Assembly (NCBI GenBank): GCA_903859215.1
Contig: CAIOLW010000130.1
Location: forward strand, 1-36,831
Length of the DNA: 36,831 bases
Direction: 5' to 3'
DNA from: an uncultured bacterium
GTDB taxonomy: Bacteria > Krumholzibacteriota > Krumholzibacteriia > LZORAL124-64-63
Shown piece after piece: positions 7,881 to 36,658 of the stretch (positions are counted from its first letter, which is position 1; every line of letters begins with the position of its first letter). The notes beneath the pieces were generated by a model that worked only from the letters and a program-made list of their open reading frames with translations, ran no database searches and was not told where the DNA came from. Made by a program: the position numbers and the translations under genes.

Positions 7881-9746
7881 TTGGACCGCGACCAGACCCG
7901 CGATTTCCTCGCCCGCATCGAACTTTTTCGCGACCTGACGCCCGACGAACTGGCCCGCCTCGGCGAGTTGCTGGAGCCGGTGACGCTGGCCCGCGGCGCC
8001 CACCTGTTCGAGGAGGGCGAGCCGCGCCGCGCGCTGCACGTGATCGAGAGCGGCGAGGTCGAGCTGTTCCGCTGCCTGCCGGGCGGCGGCGAGCGGCGCC
8101 TGGCGTGGTTCGGCCCGCGCGACTTCCTGGGCGAGGGCGGGTTGCTCGAGGACTACCCGCACTCCGCGTCGGCCCGCGCCCTGCTCGACTGCCGCATCCA
8201 CCGGTTCGGCCGCGACACGTTCGTGGCGCTGATGGAGGCCGAGCCGCAGCTGGCGGCGAAGGTGATCTCGCGCATCGCGCGCGTCATCTCGCGCCGCATG
8301 CGCGGGGCCTCGGCCCATGTGGCGAACCCCGGCGCGCAGTACCTCAGCGGCCGCACCCGCACCGAACACGACCTGCTCGGCGACCGCGAGGTGCCCGACG
8401 AGTTCTACTACGGCATCCAGACCCTGCGCGCGGTGGAGAACTTTCCCATCAGCGGCGTCGTGCTGGCGCACCACCCGGCGCTGGTCGAGTCGCTGGCGAT
8501 GGTGAAGGCGGCCTGCGCCCGCGCCAACGCCGAGCTGGGCCACCTGCCGCAGCCCATCGCCGACGCCATCGGGATCGCGTGCCACGAGATCATCGAGGGC
8601 AAGCTGCACGGCCACTTCGTGGTCGACCTGGTGCAGGGCGGGGCCGGCACCTCGACGAACATGAACGCCAACGAGGTCATCGCCAACCGCGCGCTCGAGC
8701 ACCTCGGCTTTGCCAAGGGCGAGTACCGGCACTGCCACCCGAACAACCACGTCAATCTGTCGCAGTCGACGAACGACGCCTACCCGACGGCGCTGCGCGT
8801 GGGGCTGATCCGCTCCAACGTCGGCATCTGCAACGTGCTGCGCGAGCTGGTCGCCGCCTTCGCGGCCAAGGCCGCCGAGTTCACCGACGTGCTGAAGATG
8901 GGGCGCACGCAGCTGCAGGACGCCGTGCCGATGACGCTGGGCCAGGAGTTCGAGGCCTACTCGGTGACTCTCGGCGAGGAGATCGAGCGGCTCGAGCAGA
9001 ACGTCGCCCTGTTCCTGGAAGTGAACCTGGGCGGCACCGCCATCGGCACCGGCCTGAACGCCGATCCCGCGTTCGGCGCCAAGGCCGTCGCGCACCTGCG
9101 CGACATCACCGGGCTGGAGGTGCGCCTGGCGCCGCACCTGATCGAGTCGACCATGGATACCGGCGCCTTCATCATGTACAGCTCGGCGCTCAAGCGCCTG
9201 GCCGTCAAGCTGTCGAAGATCTGCAACGACCTGCGACTGCTCTCGAGCGGCCCGCGCACGGGCTTCGGCGAGATCAACCTGCCGCCGATGCAGCCGGGCT
9301 CGTCGATCATGCCGGGCAAGGTCAACCCGGTGATCCCCGAGGTCGTCAACCAGATCGCCTTCAAGGTGATCGGCAACGACCTGACGGTGACGATGGCGGC
9401 CGAGGCCGGCCAGCTCGAACTGAACGTGATGGAGCCGATCATCGTGCAGAGCCTGCTCGAGTCGATCGACATGCTCGGCAGCGGCATGGAGACGCTGCGC
9501 GTGCGCTGCGTCTCGGGCATCACCGCCAACGTCGAGCGCTGCCGCGAGCACGTGCGGCGCAGCATCGGCGTCGTCACCGCGCTGAATCCCGTGCTGGGCT
9601 ACGACGTGAGCACCGAACTGGCGCAGGAAGCGCTGATCACCGGGCGCGGCGTGTACGAACTGGTGCTGGAGAAGAACCTGCTCTCGCGCGAGGAGCTCGA
9701 CCGGCTGCTATCGCCCGAGGCGATGGTGCGGCCGCGGAAGATCTAG
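7881..9746 (+). CDS. aspA: Aspartate ammonia-lyase with N-terminal cNMP-binding-like domain
   Basis: 621 aa, against about 470-480 for ordinary aspartase. The enzyme converts L-aspartate to fumarate and ammonia. Residues 1-about 135 form a cyclic-nucleotide-binding (CRP-type) beta-roll, including the phosphate-cassette region FLGEGGLLEDYPHSASARA (82-100). The position that is Arg in cAMP-binding proteins is His94. From about residue 158 the aspartase begins with the family's typical TEHDLLGDREVP and GIQTLRAVENFPISG. It continues with GGAGTSTNMNANEV and the flexible catalytic loop GSSIMPGKVNP (473-483, Ser474/Ser475). The aspartase signatures argue against fumarase. The start is TTG 7881, supported by GGGAGG 7 nt upstream. 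It lies 64 bp after the MOSC gene. The fusion suggests allosteric control by a small ligand, but the His substitution makes cAMP itself uncertain. Confidence 0.93.
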   Translation: MDRDQTRDFLARIELFRDLTPDELARLGELLEPVTLARGAHLFEEGEPRRALHVIESGEVELFRCLPGGGERRLAWFGPRDFLGEGGLLEDYPHSASARALLDCRIHRFGRDTFVALMEAEPQLAAKVISRIARVISRRMRGASAHVANPGAQYLSGRTRTEHDLLGDREVPDEFYYGIQTLRAVENFPISGVVLAHHPALVESLAMVKAACARANAELGHLPQPIADAIGIACHEIIEGKLHGHFVVDLVQGGAGTSTNMNANEVIANRALEHLGFAKGEYRHCHPNNHVNLSQSTNDAYPTALRVGLIRSNVGICNVLRELVAAFAAKAAEFTDVLKMGRTQLQDAVPMTLGQEFEAYSVTLGEEIERLEQNVALFLEVNLGGTAIGTGLNADPAFGAKAVAHLRDITGLEVRLAPHLIESTMDTGAFIMYSSALKRLAVKLSKICNDLRLLSSGPRTGFGEINLPPMQPGSSIMPGKVNPVIPEVVNQIAFKVIGNDLTVTMAAEAGQLELNVMEPIIVQSLLESIDMLGSGMETLRVRCVSGITANVERCREHVRRSIGVVTALNPVLGYDVSTELAQEALITGRGVYELVLEKNLLSREELDRLLSPEAMVRPRKI

Positions 9747-9759
9747 CGCGGCGCGGCGC

Positions 9760-9777
9760 ACTTGCGCCGGCGCAAGT
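9760..9777. repeat. Intergenic palindrome, copy 2 (18 bp)
   Basis: ACTTGCGCCGGCGCAAGT is a perfect 18-bp palindrome 14 bp after the aspartase stop. It is the extended form of the 14-bp palindrome at 6829 and is identical over all 18 bp to the copy at 36493. Confidence 0.75.
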
Positions 9778-33613: not shown

Positions 33614-34648
33614 TCAGCCGCCGATGTTGACCATGCTGTCGAGATTGTGGCGGCGATGGTCCAGCTCGGACGCGACACCGTCGGTCAGCCGGCCGGCCAC
33701 CGACTGGCGGATGGCGGCGACCAGCGCGCGATCCTCGGCCCCGGCGCGGATGAGCGGCCGCAGGAACGCCGACGGCCGTCCGTACAGGCAGGTCCGCATC
33801 CGCCCGCGCGCGTCCAGGCGCAGCCGGCGGCACGTGCCGCAGAACGTGCGGCTGTGCCCCTCGATGACGCCGATGCGCCCGAGGAACCCGTCGATGCGGA
33901 ACAGCTTCTCAACCGAACCGGCGACCACCGGCTCGGCCTCGATGGCGTGCGACTGGGCCAGCTTCGCCAGGATCTCGGTCCCGGTGATGCCCGGCCCGCA
34001 CAGCCGGCCTTCGCCCACGAACGGCATCGGCTCGATGAAGCGCACCGTGACCGGCCGCTCGCGCGCCAGGTCGGCGAACGCGGCCAGCTCGTGGTCGTTG
34101 GTGCCGGGCAGCACCACCATGTTGATCTTCAGGCCCAGGCCGCGCGCCAGCACCTGGTCGACGGCCGCGCGCACGCGCTCGAAGCCGTCGCGCCGCGTGA
34201 TCGTCGCCCACGTGACAGGGTCCAGCGAGTCGAGGCTCAGGTTCACCCGCTGCAGGCCCGCCTCGGCCAGCGCATCGAGGTGGTCGGCCAGCAGCAGCCC
34301 GTTGGTCGTCAGCAGCACCTCGGGCGCCGAAGGCAGCGCGCGCAGCGCCGCAATCAGCGACACCACGCCGCGCCGGACCAGCGGCTCGCCCCCGGTGATG
34401 CGGAACGTGCGCACGCCCAGGCCGGCGAAGATGCCGCCCACGCGGATCAGCTCGTCGATGGAGAGGATCTCGTCGCGCTCGCCCAGGGTGACCCCGGCCG
34501 CCGGCATGCAGTACTGGCAGCGGAGGTTGCAGCGGTCGGTCACGGCCAGGCGCAGGTAGTCCAGGCGACGACCCTGGGGGTCGACGAGCGTCCCGTCGTG
34601 AGTCGACGGGAACGTGCCGAGCGAAGCGGCCTGCAGGCCTGGTGACAC
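33614..34648 (-). CDS. moaA: GTP 3',8-cyclase (MoaA)
   Basis: 344 aa from GTG 34648, which has GAGG 8 nt upstream; an open frame continues to 34816 but would add a non-homologous GC-rich N terminus. MoaA is a radical-SAM enzyme that converts GTP to 3',8-cyclo-dihydro-GTP, the first step of molybdenum-cofactor synthesis. The SAM-cluster motif is C-x3-C-x2-C in CNLRCQYC, followed by FRITGGEPLVRRG. The second 4Fe-4S cluster uses the Cys pattern in FCGTCRRLRLDARGRMRTC. The chain ends in the required double glycine (NIGG). It heads the moaA-moeA-pyrC operon and is divergent from the pyrophosphatase gene. Confidence 0.96.
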   Translation of the reverse strand: MSPGLQAASLGTFPSTHDGTLVDPQGRRLDYLRLAVTDRCNLRCQYCMPAAGVTLGERDEILSIDELIRVGGIFAGLGVRTFRITGGEPLVRRGVVSLIAALRALPSAPEVLLTTNGLLLADHLDALAEAGLQRVNLSLDSLDPVTWATITRRDGFERVRAAVDQVLARGLGLKINMVVLPGTNDHELAAFADLARERPVTVRFIEPMPFVGEGRLCGPGITGTEILAKLAQSHAIEAEPVVAGSVEKLFRIDGFLGRIGVIEGHSRTFCGTCRRLRLDARGRMRTCLYGRPSAFLRPLIRAGAEDRALVAAIRQSVAGRLTDGVASELDHRRHNLDSMVNIGG

Positions 34649-34809
34649 TATTGAGACCTCTGGTGGCGCCCCCGGGCACAGGCCCGGCGACACCCGCCGG
34701 AACGGGCCGGAAGCGGTTCTCCCCACAAGAAAACACACATCGGGGCCCATGTCCATGCGGTCGGCCCGCTGCCCGTCCGGCGCGTCCGAAGCCCATGGCA
34801 GGTCGCCGC

Positions 34810-34838
34810 TTCGCATTCCCGCCAGATCGCGCTATCAT
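34810..34838 (+). promoter_or_regulatory. Candidate ppa promoter with overlapping inverted repeat
   Basis: TTCGCA (34810-34815), 17 bp, then TATCAT (34833-34838) gives four and five of six consensus matches. The -10 box sits within an inverted repeat, CCCGCCA (34818-34824) and TGGCGGG (34838-34844), which could be an operator. The rest of the 240-bp gap back to moaA is GC-rich with short stem-loops; I recognise no riboswitch. Confidence 0.5.
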
Positions 34839-34888
34839 GGCGGGCGTCAGTCGCCGTCCGGGGCATCCATCTGGCGGGAGACCTTGCC

Positions 34889-35560
34889 ATGGAAAGCGTC
34901 AACATCGACCTGCTTCACCAGCTGTTCCGCGCGCATCCCTGGCACGGGGTGGCCATCGGCGACGAGTCGCCCGAACGGGTCACGGCCTACGTCGAGATCG
35001 TGCCGTCGGACACGGTGAAGTACGAACTCGACAAGCCCACCGGCCTGCTCAAGGTCGACCGCCCGCAGAAGTTCTCGAACGTCTACCCGACCCTGTACGG
35101 ACTGCTGCCCCAGACTTACTGCGGCCCGAAGGTGGCCGAGTACTGCATGAAGCAGGCCTCGCGCACGGGCATCGTCGGCGACGGCGACCCCCTCGACATC
35201 TGCATCCTGGCCGAGAAGACCATCACGCACGGCGACATCCTCCTGACGGTGACGCCCATCGGCGGTCTGCGCATGATCGACGGCAACGAGGCCGACGACA
35301 AGATCATCGCCGTGCTCGGCACCGACGCCATCTACGGCCACCTGCGCGACATCTACGAATGTCCCGCGTCGATGATCGAGCGCCTGCGCCACTATTTCCT
35401 GACCTACAAGGACGCGCCCGGCGCGCGCCGCAGCGAAACCGAGATCACGCACATCTACGGCCGCACCGAGGCCCACGAAGTCATCGAACGCAGCATGGCC
35501 GACTACGCCGACAAGTTCGGCGACCTCAAGGGCCTGTTCGAGCGCCTGCGCTCGCGCTGA
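34889..35560 (+). CDS. ppa: Inorganic pyrophosphatase (family I)
   Basis: 223 aa, longer than the roughly 175 aa of the common bacterial enzyme. It hydrolyses pyrophosphate and so drives biosynthetic reactions, including nucleotide-sugar and nucleic-acid synthesis. Core motifs are KYELDKPTGLLKVDR, YPTLYGLLPQTY and the metal-binding D-x-D-x-x-D signature in GDGDPLDICIL. Between LPQTY and that signature lies an insertion of about 18 residues (CGPKVAEYCMKQASRTGIV) not found in the E. coli type, and the N terminus carries the extra AHPWHGVAIGDESPE seen in some long variants. GGGAG lies 8 nt before the ATG. It is divergent from moaA and 41 bp before the methyltransferase gene. Confidence 0.95.
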   Translation: MESVNIDLLHQLFRAHPWHGVAIGDESPERVTAYVEIVPSDTVKYELDKPTGLLKVDRPQKFSNVYPTLYGLLPQTYCGPKVAEYCMKQASRTGIVGDGDPLDICILAEKTITHGDILLTVTPIGGLRMIDGNEADDKIIAVLGTDAIYGHLRDIYECPASMIERLRHYFLTYKDAPGARRSETEITHIYGRTEAHEVIERSMADYADKFGDLKGLFERLRSR

Positions 35561-35601
35561 CCCGCCTTCGGCCCGCATCACCAACCGGGGAGCCCGCGCT
35601 C

Positions 35602-36342
35602 ATGGGCATCCAGGACCACTTTTCCCGTCAGTCGGCCGACTACGCCGCCTATCGCCCCACGTATCCCGCGGCGCTCACCACGTGGCTGGCCTCGCAGGCC
35701 CGCCGCACCGGCCTTGCCTGGGATGCCGGCTGCGGCAATGGCCAGGCCACGCTCGGCCTGGCGGAACACTTCGCGCACGTCGAGGCCAGCGACCCCAGCG
35801 AAAGCCAGATCGCCCAGGCCACGCCGCACCCGCACGTGCACTACCACGTCGCCGCCGAGTCGCTGCCCGTGCTGGCCGACCACACCGTCGACCTGATCAC
35901 CGTCGCGCAGGCCCTGCACTGGTTCGACCAGGCCGCGTTCGCCGCCGAAGTGCGCCGCGTCGCCGCGCCGGGCGCGGTCATCGCCGCGTGGACGTACAAC
36001 CTGCACCGCGTCACGCCCGGTGTTGATGCGATCATCGATGCGTTCTACGCCGGGCTGGACCCGTGGTGGCCGGCGGAGCGGCGGCATGTCGAGGATGGGT
36101 ATGCGCACCTGACGCTGCCGGGGCGCGCGTTGGAGGCGCCCGCGTTCGCGATGACGGCGGACTGGGATCTCGAGCACGTGCTCGGCTACCTGGCCAGCTG
36201 GTCGGCAGTGGCGCGCTGCGCCGCCGAGACGGGGCGCGATCCGATCGGTGACGTGCGCGCGGAGCTGGAAGCGGCGTGGGGCGGGTTGCGGGTGAGGCGG
36301 CGGGTGGTGTGGCCGTTGGCGGTGATCGTGGCGCGGGTTTGA
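35602..36342 (+). CDS. Class I SAM-dependent methyltransferase
   Basis: 246 aa. The Rossmann-fold methyltransferase motif I is WDAGCGNGQATLGLAEHF (about 39-56), the acidic ribose-binding position is in VEASDPSESQI, and motif IV appears as VDLITVAQALHWFD. The N-terminal FSRQSADYAAYRPTYP and the HWFD motif are characteristic of the trans-aconitate/small-molecule methyltransferase-like group of this superfamily. The C terminus reads RRRVVWPLAVIVARV. Substrate unknown; it could equally be a lipid, quinone or organic-acid methylase. GGGGAG lies before the ATG, 41 bp after ppa, so both may share a transcript. A degenerate copy of the last part of this gene occurs at 36659-36763. Confidence 0.9.
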   Translation: MGIQDHFSRQSADYAAYRPTYPAALTTWLASQARRTGLAWDAGCGNGQATLGLAEHFAHVEASDPSESQIAQATPHPHVHYHVAAESLPVLADHTVDLITVAQALHWFDQAAFAAEVRRVAAPGAVIAAWTYNLHRVTPGVDAIIDAFYAGLDPWWPAERRHVEDGYAHLTLPGRALEAPAFAMTADWDLEHVLGYLASWSAVARCAAETGRDPIGDVRAELEAAWGGLRVRRRVVWPLAVIVARV

Positions 36343-36346
36343 GGAG

Positions 36347-36360
36347 TTGCGCCGGCGCAA
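36347..36360. repeat. Intergenic palindrome, copy 3
   Basis: Perfect TTGCGCCGGCGCAA, starting 5 bp after the methyltransferase stop codon. Confidence 0.7.
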
Positions 36361-36440: not shown

Positions 36441-36488
36441 GAAATTGATAATCAACAAATTGGCTCCGCATTGTGGAGCCAATTGCCG
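36441..36488. repeat. 48-bp hairpin repeat unit, copy A
   Basis: Starts GAAATTGATAATCAACAAAT and ends AATTGCCG. A 13-bp stem is formed by 36458-36470 and 36472-36484 (outer arms AATTGGCTCC and GGAGCCAATT), with one G-T pair. The left part TTGATAATCAA is itself a small dyad. A second unit of identical length starts 104 bp later. Confidence 0.8.
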
Positions 36489-36492
36489 CGCC

Positions 36493-36510
36493 ACTTGCGC
36501 CGGCGCAAGT
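36493..36510. repeat. Intergenic palindrome, copy 4 (18 bp)
   Basis: ACTTGCGCCGGCGCAAGT, identical to 9760-9777, located between the two 48-bp hairpin units. Confidence 0.75.
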
Positions 36511-36544
36511 CCCGACGAGCGCGGGCCGTGGGCGCTGAGCCACT

Positions 36545-36592
36545 GAAATTGATATCCAACAAATTCGCGCCGCACTGCGGCGCGAATTGCCG
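36545..36592. repeat. 48-bp hairpin repeat unit, copy B
   Basis: Aligns without gaps to copy A (40 of 48 identical). The stem AATTCGCGCCGCA (36562-36574) pairs perfectly with TGCGGCGCGAATT (36576-36588). Two of the stem differences from copy A are compensatory on both arms (unit positions 22/40 and 25/37), and a third changes a G-T pair to G-C. Confidence 0.8.
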
Positions 36593-36658
36593 TTGGCCTC
36601 ACGACGCGCATTTCACCCAGATACTGGATGAAGCCGGCATCGTCCTTCGTTTCCGAAA

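Follow-up and report, generated by a model that had tools for sequence, protein, structure and literature searches.

Repeat units near a contig end of an uncultured Krumholzibacteriota bacterium resemble a hairpin segment carried inside DUF1016/YhcG nuclease genes

Introduction

Short palindromic DNA repeats that are linked to, and lie beside, one nuclease gene are known from REP/RAYT systems (REPtrons), in which copies number in the hundreds and some fall within genes (PMC3733652). Palindromic DNA can also sit in frame in protein genes, as well as between genes, in the form of the Rickettsia palindromic elements (RPEs), which measure 100-150 nt and occur in many unrelated genes (PMC4316617). 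The DUF1016/YhcG nucleases (PF06250, PF17761) are widespread in bacteria, and no function is established for them; an earlier study linked them to the archaeal Holliday junction resolvases without assigning a function (PMC1189080), and PADLOC lists the family as a single-gene phage-defence candidate (PDC-S02).

Here we describe two repeat units on a contig of an uncultured Krumholzibacteriota bacterium (GCA_903859215.1, CAIOLW010000130.1; the whole 36,831-nt stretch is referred to as the window). That they are stray extragenic copies of a hairpin segment from DUF1016/YhcG genes, with which the family is associated, is well supported by sequence comparison. In contrast to REPtrons, there are three copies in the genome, and the element lies inside the partner gene's own coding sequence; the genome has no match to the RAYT Y1 tyrosine transposase (PF01797), of which one broken fragment occurs in a genome of the same genus (G001), and the unit sequence lacks a GTAG or CGTC tag at the palindrome foot. 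A preliminary description of this DNA had suggested looking for a cognate transposase or recombinase. A RAYT-type enzyme is absent, but the DUF1016 nuclease gene is a candidate partner: since the unit is a copy of a segment of that gene, the cognate enzyme is probably encoded by the gene carrying the repeat. Unlike RPEs, we find a 27-nt hairpin, copied as a unit of 60-75 nt, in one nuclease family, with covariance-model matches clustering in or beside DUF1016 genes and no in-frame copies in many unrelated genes.

As with homing endonuclease genes, the nuclease gene sits at the site it is proposed to recognise, or has that site on its borders, and other strains carry empty-site alleles; here, however, such a site is also found within the reading frame of the nuclease itself, its stem sequence is variable, and homing is putative. 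By domain content the hairpin-carrying gene is an ordinary DUF1016/YhcG member, but the in-gene hairpin and its dispersed copies feature in no description that we found in the open-access literature, and an earlier account in subscription papers is possible. The hallmarks of REP/RAYT and RPE systems are missing here, and we are aware of no other system in which the partner nuclease gene itself contains the hairpin.

Results

Two hairpin units beyond a methyltransferase gene

Both units are found downstream of a methyltransferase gene, in the stretch from its stop codon to the contig end (36831), as follows:

34642..36342, + strand: methyltransferase-domain gene, a locus marker (a DUF1016 nuclease gene comes after it in G003 and G001)
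36347..36360, no strand: P palindrome TTGCGCCGGCGCAA, a separate genome-wide repeat, neighbour of the units only
36441..36488, + strand: unit 1, extragenic copy of the DUF1016 hinge segment (alignment, folding, covariance model)
36458-36484, + strand: unit 1 hairpin, with one G.T pair
36495..36508, no strand: P palindrome TTGCGCCGGCGCAA between the units, likewise a separate repeat and neighbour only
36545..36614, + strand: unit 2, extragenic copy of the DUF1016 hinge segment, its 48-bp core ending at 36592
36562-36588, + strand: unit 2 hairpin, perfect

The 48-bp cores (36441-36488 and 36545-36592), 104 bp apart, align without gaps at 83% identity, and the eight differences with two compensatory pairs reported in the preliminary description are confirmed by the alignment. 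The TTGAT-side spacer contains two of the differences and the loop a third; a fourth turns a G.T pair into G-C, and the remaining four form two complementary stem pairs (G-C to C-G and T-A to G-C). Both stems fold more stably than shuffled sequences (z -5.4 and -4.4). The extent first assigned, 36441-36592, holds for the cores but is too short for unit 2, whose homology runs to about 36614.

Read in the DUF1016 gene frame, unit 1 gives EIDNQQIGSALWSQL, which has 70% identity over 20 aa to its counterpart in the DUF1016 hinge of the same genome, DIDTQQIGSALRSQF; unit 2 gives EIDIQQIRAALRRELPLASRRAF and, over 71 nt, has 76% identity to the in-gene segment of G003, a genome of the same genus. Compared with DUF1016 proteins, the units match in the hinge only (tblastn E 1e-4 and 6e-4), and the same search found no other part of a DUF1016 gene beside them. 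Judged by these matches, the units are segment copies and not remnants of a whole DUF1016 gene.

The same methyltransferase gene is present in G003, where an array of units and P palindromes comes next and a DUF1016 gene after that, while in G001 the DUF1016 gene comes directly after the methyltransferase gene, with P but no unit in between. Hence, the window probably shows the front of such a locus, its contig stopping before the point where G003 and G001 have the DUF1016 gene. Close to the contig end, 36702-36763 (62 nt) partially duplicates the methyltransferase gene, with 79% identity to its 3' end (36280-36341).

The P-unit-P-unit order had been taken to indicate a composite array, which would make units and P palindromes one repeat family independent of DUF1016. 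The order itself is correct, and the alternation recurs in G003, but TTGCGCCGGCGCAA occupies 263 places in the window's own genome (G000; up to one mismatch allowed) against three for the unit, and in-gene units at the loci examined have no directly adjacent P. We consider such a family very improbable; copy numbers have already largely refuted it, and P is a separate genome-wide repeat. Within the window P was found four times (6829, 9762, 36347 and 36495) against 0.02 expected, and it often has GT after it or AC before it.

A structured RNA family, also put forward at first, is unlikely because imperfect stem pairs show no sense-strand G-U preference (see below) and no Rfam family reaches its gathering threshold. 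All Rfam matches were chance matches below it. In a terminator scan of both units, a GC-rich stem with a T run appeared only in unit 1, on the minus strand, and an intrinsic terminator was rejected. The first proposal of a mobile element or protein-recognition array belonging to no known family was largely right, more copies with covarying stems having been found.

The same hairpin inside DUF1016/YhcG genes

The window's own genome (4.33 Mb, 391 contigs) holds a single further copy of the unit, on another contig, in frame within a gene of 389 aa whose domains, DUF1016_N and YhcG_C, mark it as a PD-(D/E)XK nuclease gene. Three genomes of the same genus contain more copies, with stem sequences that are different yet complementary, and each has at least one copy at the same place of the DUF1016 gene, just before the LSWTHY motif. 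Units of one locus differ in stem sequence and keep their geometry. Flanks are common within a DUF1016 subfamily, and a second subfamily in the window's own genome has its own, longer flanks, which are common to in-gene and upstream copies.

A genome-wide pattern scan returned nine stretches, five of them from same-genus relatives (L033, L034, L039, L040, L041). Three more (L035-L037) have no full stems and look like chance, and one (L038), on an Omnitrophota contig from a distant phylum (JAHFGE010000128.1, 4069-4100), is a complete hairpin, CAACAAATTTGCTACGCAGTGCGTAGCAAATTG, with close similarity to the window unit. No viral contig carrying the unit pattern was found by pattern search, and a peptide-pattern search confirmed no viral DUF1016 relative.

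Among DUF1016 genes sampled from 193 genomes across bacteria, together with E. coli K-12 yhcG, most carry a hairpin in their own coding sequence, in the hinge, K-12 yhcG included; some have no clear hairpin. It is perfect or near-perfect, with an 11-13 bp stem, a 3-nt loop and ATT/AAT outer ends (AATT end). A perfect 11-bp stem with a 3-nt loop is present in 38 of 75 DUF1016 genes, against 0.04 expected from synonymous codon shuffling, and the best hairpin falls in one codon phase in 65 of 69. Only three of 100 control frames scored, and by their coordinates all three are antisense over DUF1016 hairpins. The stem covariation score is 0.76 against 0.16 when shuffled, from alignment rows picked for good stems, so that the pairing percentage is biased upwards.

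The covariation had been read as showing selection for the folded form. A constraint on the folded or palindromic form is largely borne out, but covariation alone is no proof of selection, because template switching between the arms can make paired changes. A neutral origin would follow this line: a palindromic element in the insertion-tolerant linker of an old gene, its arms kept identical by template switching, with no selected role. Mutational processes are known to include quasi-palindrome correction, disorder is predicted for the encoded segment, and the hinge segment varies in length and copy number. We nevertheless regard a neutral origin as improbable, given that the hairpin recurs in one gene family across distant bacteria at near-constant phase and loop size and is nearly absent from the other genes checked.

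The imperfect stem pairs comprise 11 G.U, 29 A.C and 55 others, and this lack of a sense-strand G-U excess argues for DNA over mRNA. It bears on whether the hairpin acts in the transcript, through translation pausing, as an RNase site or by attenuation. Transcripts of the gene include the hairpin, always in the one phase, and its stems are stable as RNA, but besides the missing G-U preference, a perfect hairpin outside any gene is conserved between yhcG-less E. coli strains, and we hold an mRNA element to be improbable.

Hairpins gather in and beside DUF1016 genes

A covariance model (R1) built from 36 in-gene hairpins of other lineages only, with the window's genus left out, detects both window units, unit 1 at 36456-36486 (31.5 bits, E 6e-6) and unit 2 at 36560-36590 (38.2 bits, E 6e-8). 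The preliminary description had proposed a covariance model built from the two units and a search of the genome and its relatives; further copies exist in both and their stems covary, so its account of a folded unit was not refuted.

PF06250 is present in 27 of the 32 genomes with a model match and in 17 of the remaining 161 (193 genomes; Fisher p 1e-16), a count that takes in in-gene matches and training genes; 17 of the 44 PF06250 genomes have no model match at E 0.01. Of the 86 hairpin places in the 193 genomes, the hinge accounts for 45, and another 22 are no more than 3 kb away, almost always upstream; several hairpins on contigs without PF06250 lie inside degraded DUF1016 pieces. In a held-out test on 24 genomes outside the training set, 57 of 80 hairpins were within 3 kb of a PF06250 match, ground that makes up at most 1.3% of the bases. 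Extra copies are few and mostly close to a DUF1016 gene; hence any mobility is low.

This placement could also reflect autoregulation, in which the DUF1016 protein would limit expression of a potentially harmful nuclease by binding the palindrome in and near the gene that encodes it, with the palindrome serving as operator or transcription roadblock. Extra copies in the window's genus being mostly upstream of the gene, and the in-gene copy lying early in the coding sequence, are consistent with this. Stems differ between units of one locus, however, unlike the sites of sequence-specific repressors, and the extra copy in E. coli lies after the stop codon; we think autoregulation unlikely.

One locus in the window's genus (L158, G003:C7:64000-80500) has three DUF1016 genes in 16 kb, most with upstream hairpins, and an SNF2-type helicase and an NYN-domain gene nearby. 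Clusters of four to five closely spaced hairpins occur at L150 (G171:C19), in a DUF1016_N-only remnant, and at G210:C65, on a contig without YhcG_C.

The hairpin as a candidate nuclease substrate

The predicted structure of the DUF1016 protein has a mean pLDDT of 76; a sequence search found no solved structure for it. Residues 122-149, which the hairpin encodes, are of low confidence and unstructured in the predicted model, and the C-terminal domain matches the fold of NucS/EndoMS and, more weakly, Bax1, both PD-(D/E)XK nucleases whose substrates are mismatched or forked DNA. No Type I restriction neighbours were seen among the 10 neighbour proteins scanned.

Position, geometry, phase, covariation and gene-family association of the hairpin are direct observations, and the presence of a hairpin within the gene suggests that this structure is either acted on by the nuclease or involved in the nuclease's spread or control. 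A stem sequence that is free to vary at fixed geometry speaks more for recognition of structure than for a sequence-specific operator, and a cruciform, being a four-way junction, fits a resolvase-like enzyme. We place at about even the chance that the DNA hairpin or cruciform is a candidate site of the encoded structure-specific nuclease, probably aiding its copying or homing. As an extruded cruciform, or as a fold of single-stranded DNA, the hairpin would be recognised and nicked or cut, and repair would proceed from the other arm or from another copy. Such repair may keep the arms matched, flip loops and change copy number, and hairpin sites may receive copies of the segment or of the entire gene, which would amount to homing or to a REPtron-like strategy based on a different enzyme; the array in the window would then be the upstream array of a DUF1016 locus. 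A nuclease that recognises this structure, and would thereby drive copying or homing, would need some protection from cutting its own gene, which counts against the proposal.

More tentatively, and with less confidence, we suggest a structure-specific nuclease gene that carries its own hairpin target in frame, copies itself, seeds sites and acts on imperfect arms until a perfect palindrome results. DUF1016/YhcG could on that reading be a widespread self-marking, homing-like gene, found also in E. coli K-12. In either form, the embedded hairpin, with its free stem sequence and fixed geometry and codon phase in distant bacteria, points to a candidate substrate for the family and makes its function testable in K-12. 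Within a gene, constraint this strong on the form of the DNA, and not on protein or RNA, would be a rarity, and the hairpin could represent a new route for the spread of short repeats and genes.

Empty and filled yhcG sites in E. coli

The E. coli evidence consists of selected genomic regions and BLAST counts. The yhcG gene lies between gltD and nanQ, with one to three in-gene hairpins (spaced 39 nt, or 13 codons, in K-12 and UTME-14) and one more after the stop codon; K-12 has an additional hairpin immediately past gltD. In L167, L181 and L182, three strains that lack yhcG, the empty site is occupied by a single perfect hairpin, so the alleles read gltD-hairpin-nanQ versus gltD-yhcG-hairpin-nanQ. 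On its left side the empty-site hairpin has a flank matching that of the hairpin past gltD in K-12, and on its right side one similar to the nanQ side. About 948 of 5,381 E. coli genomes show the low-identity nanQ-side match seen in these three strains (BLAST count). From strain to strain, the hairpin after yhcG shows a double complementary change and flipped loops. The left hairpin is absent from most yhcG-positive types examined, and the empty site is explained equally well by insertion and by a deletion between hairpins on either side.

In strain MS 21-1 (L168; yhcG at 8676-9775), two in-gene hairpins are 23 nt apart, compared with 36 in CI5, and yhcG carries a frameshift annotation, consistent with a deletion from one hairpin to the other. 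In MIN14 (L184, about 3518) and J2 (L185, about 2730), yhcG ends a few bases past the third in-gene hairpin, and an annotated transposase gene stands next to the cut gene, as if an insertion sequence had entered at the hairpin edge.
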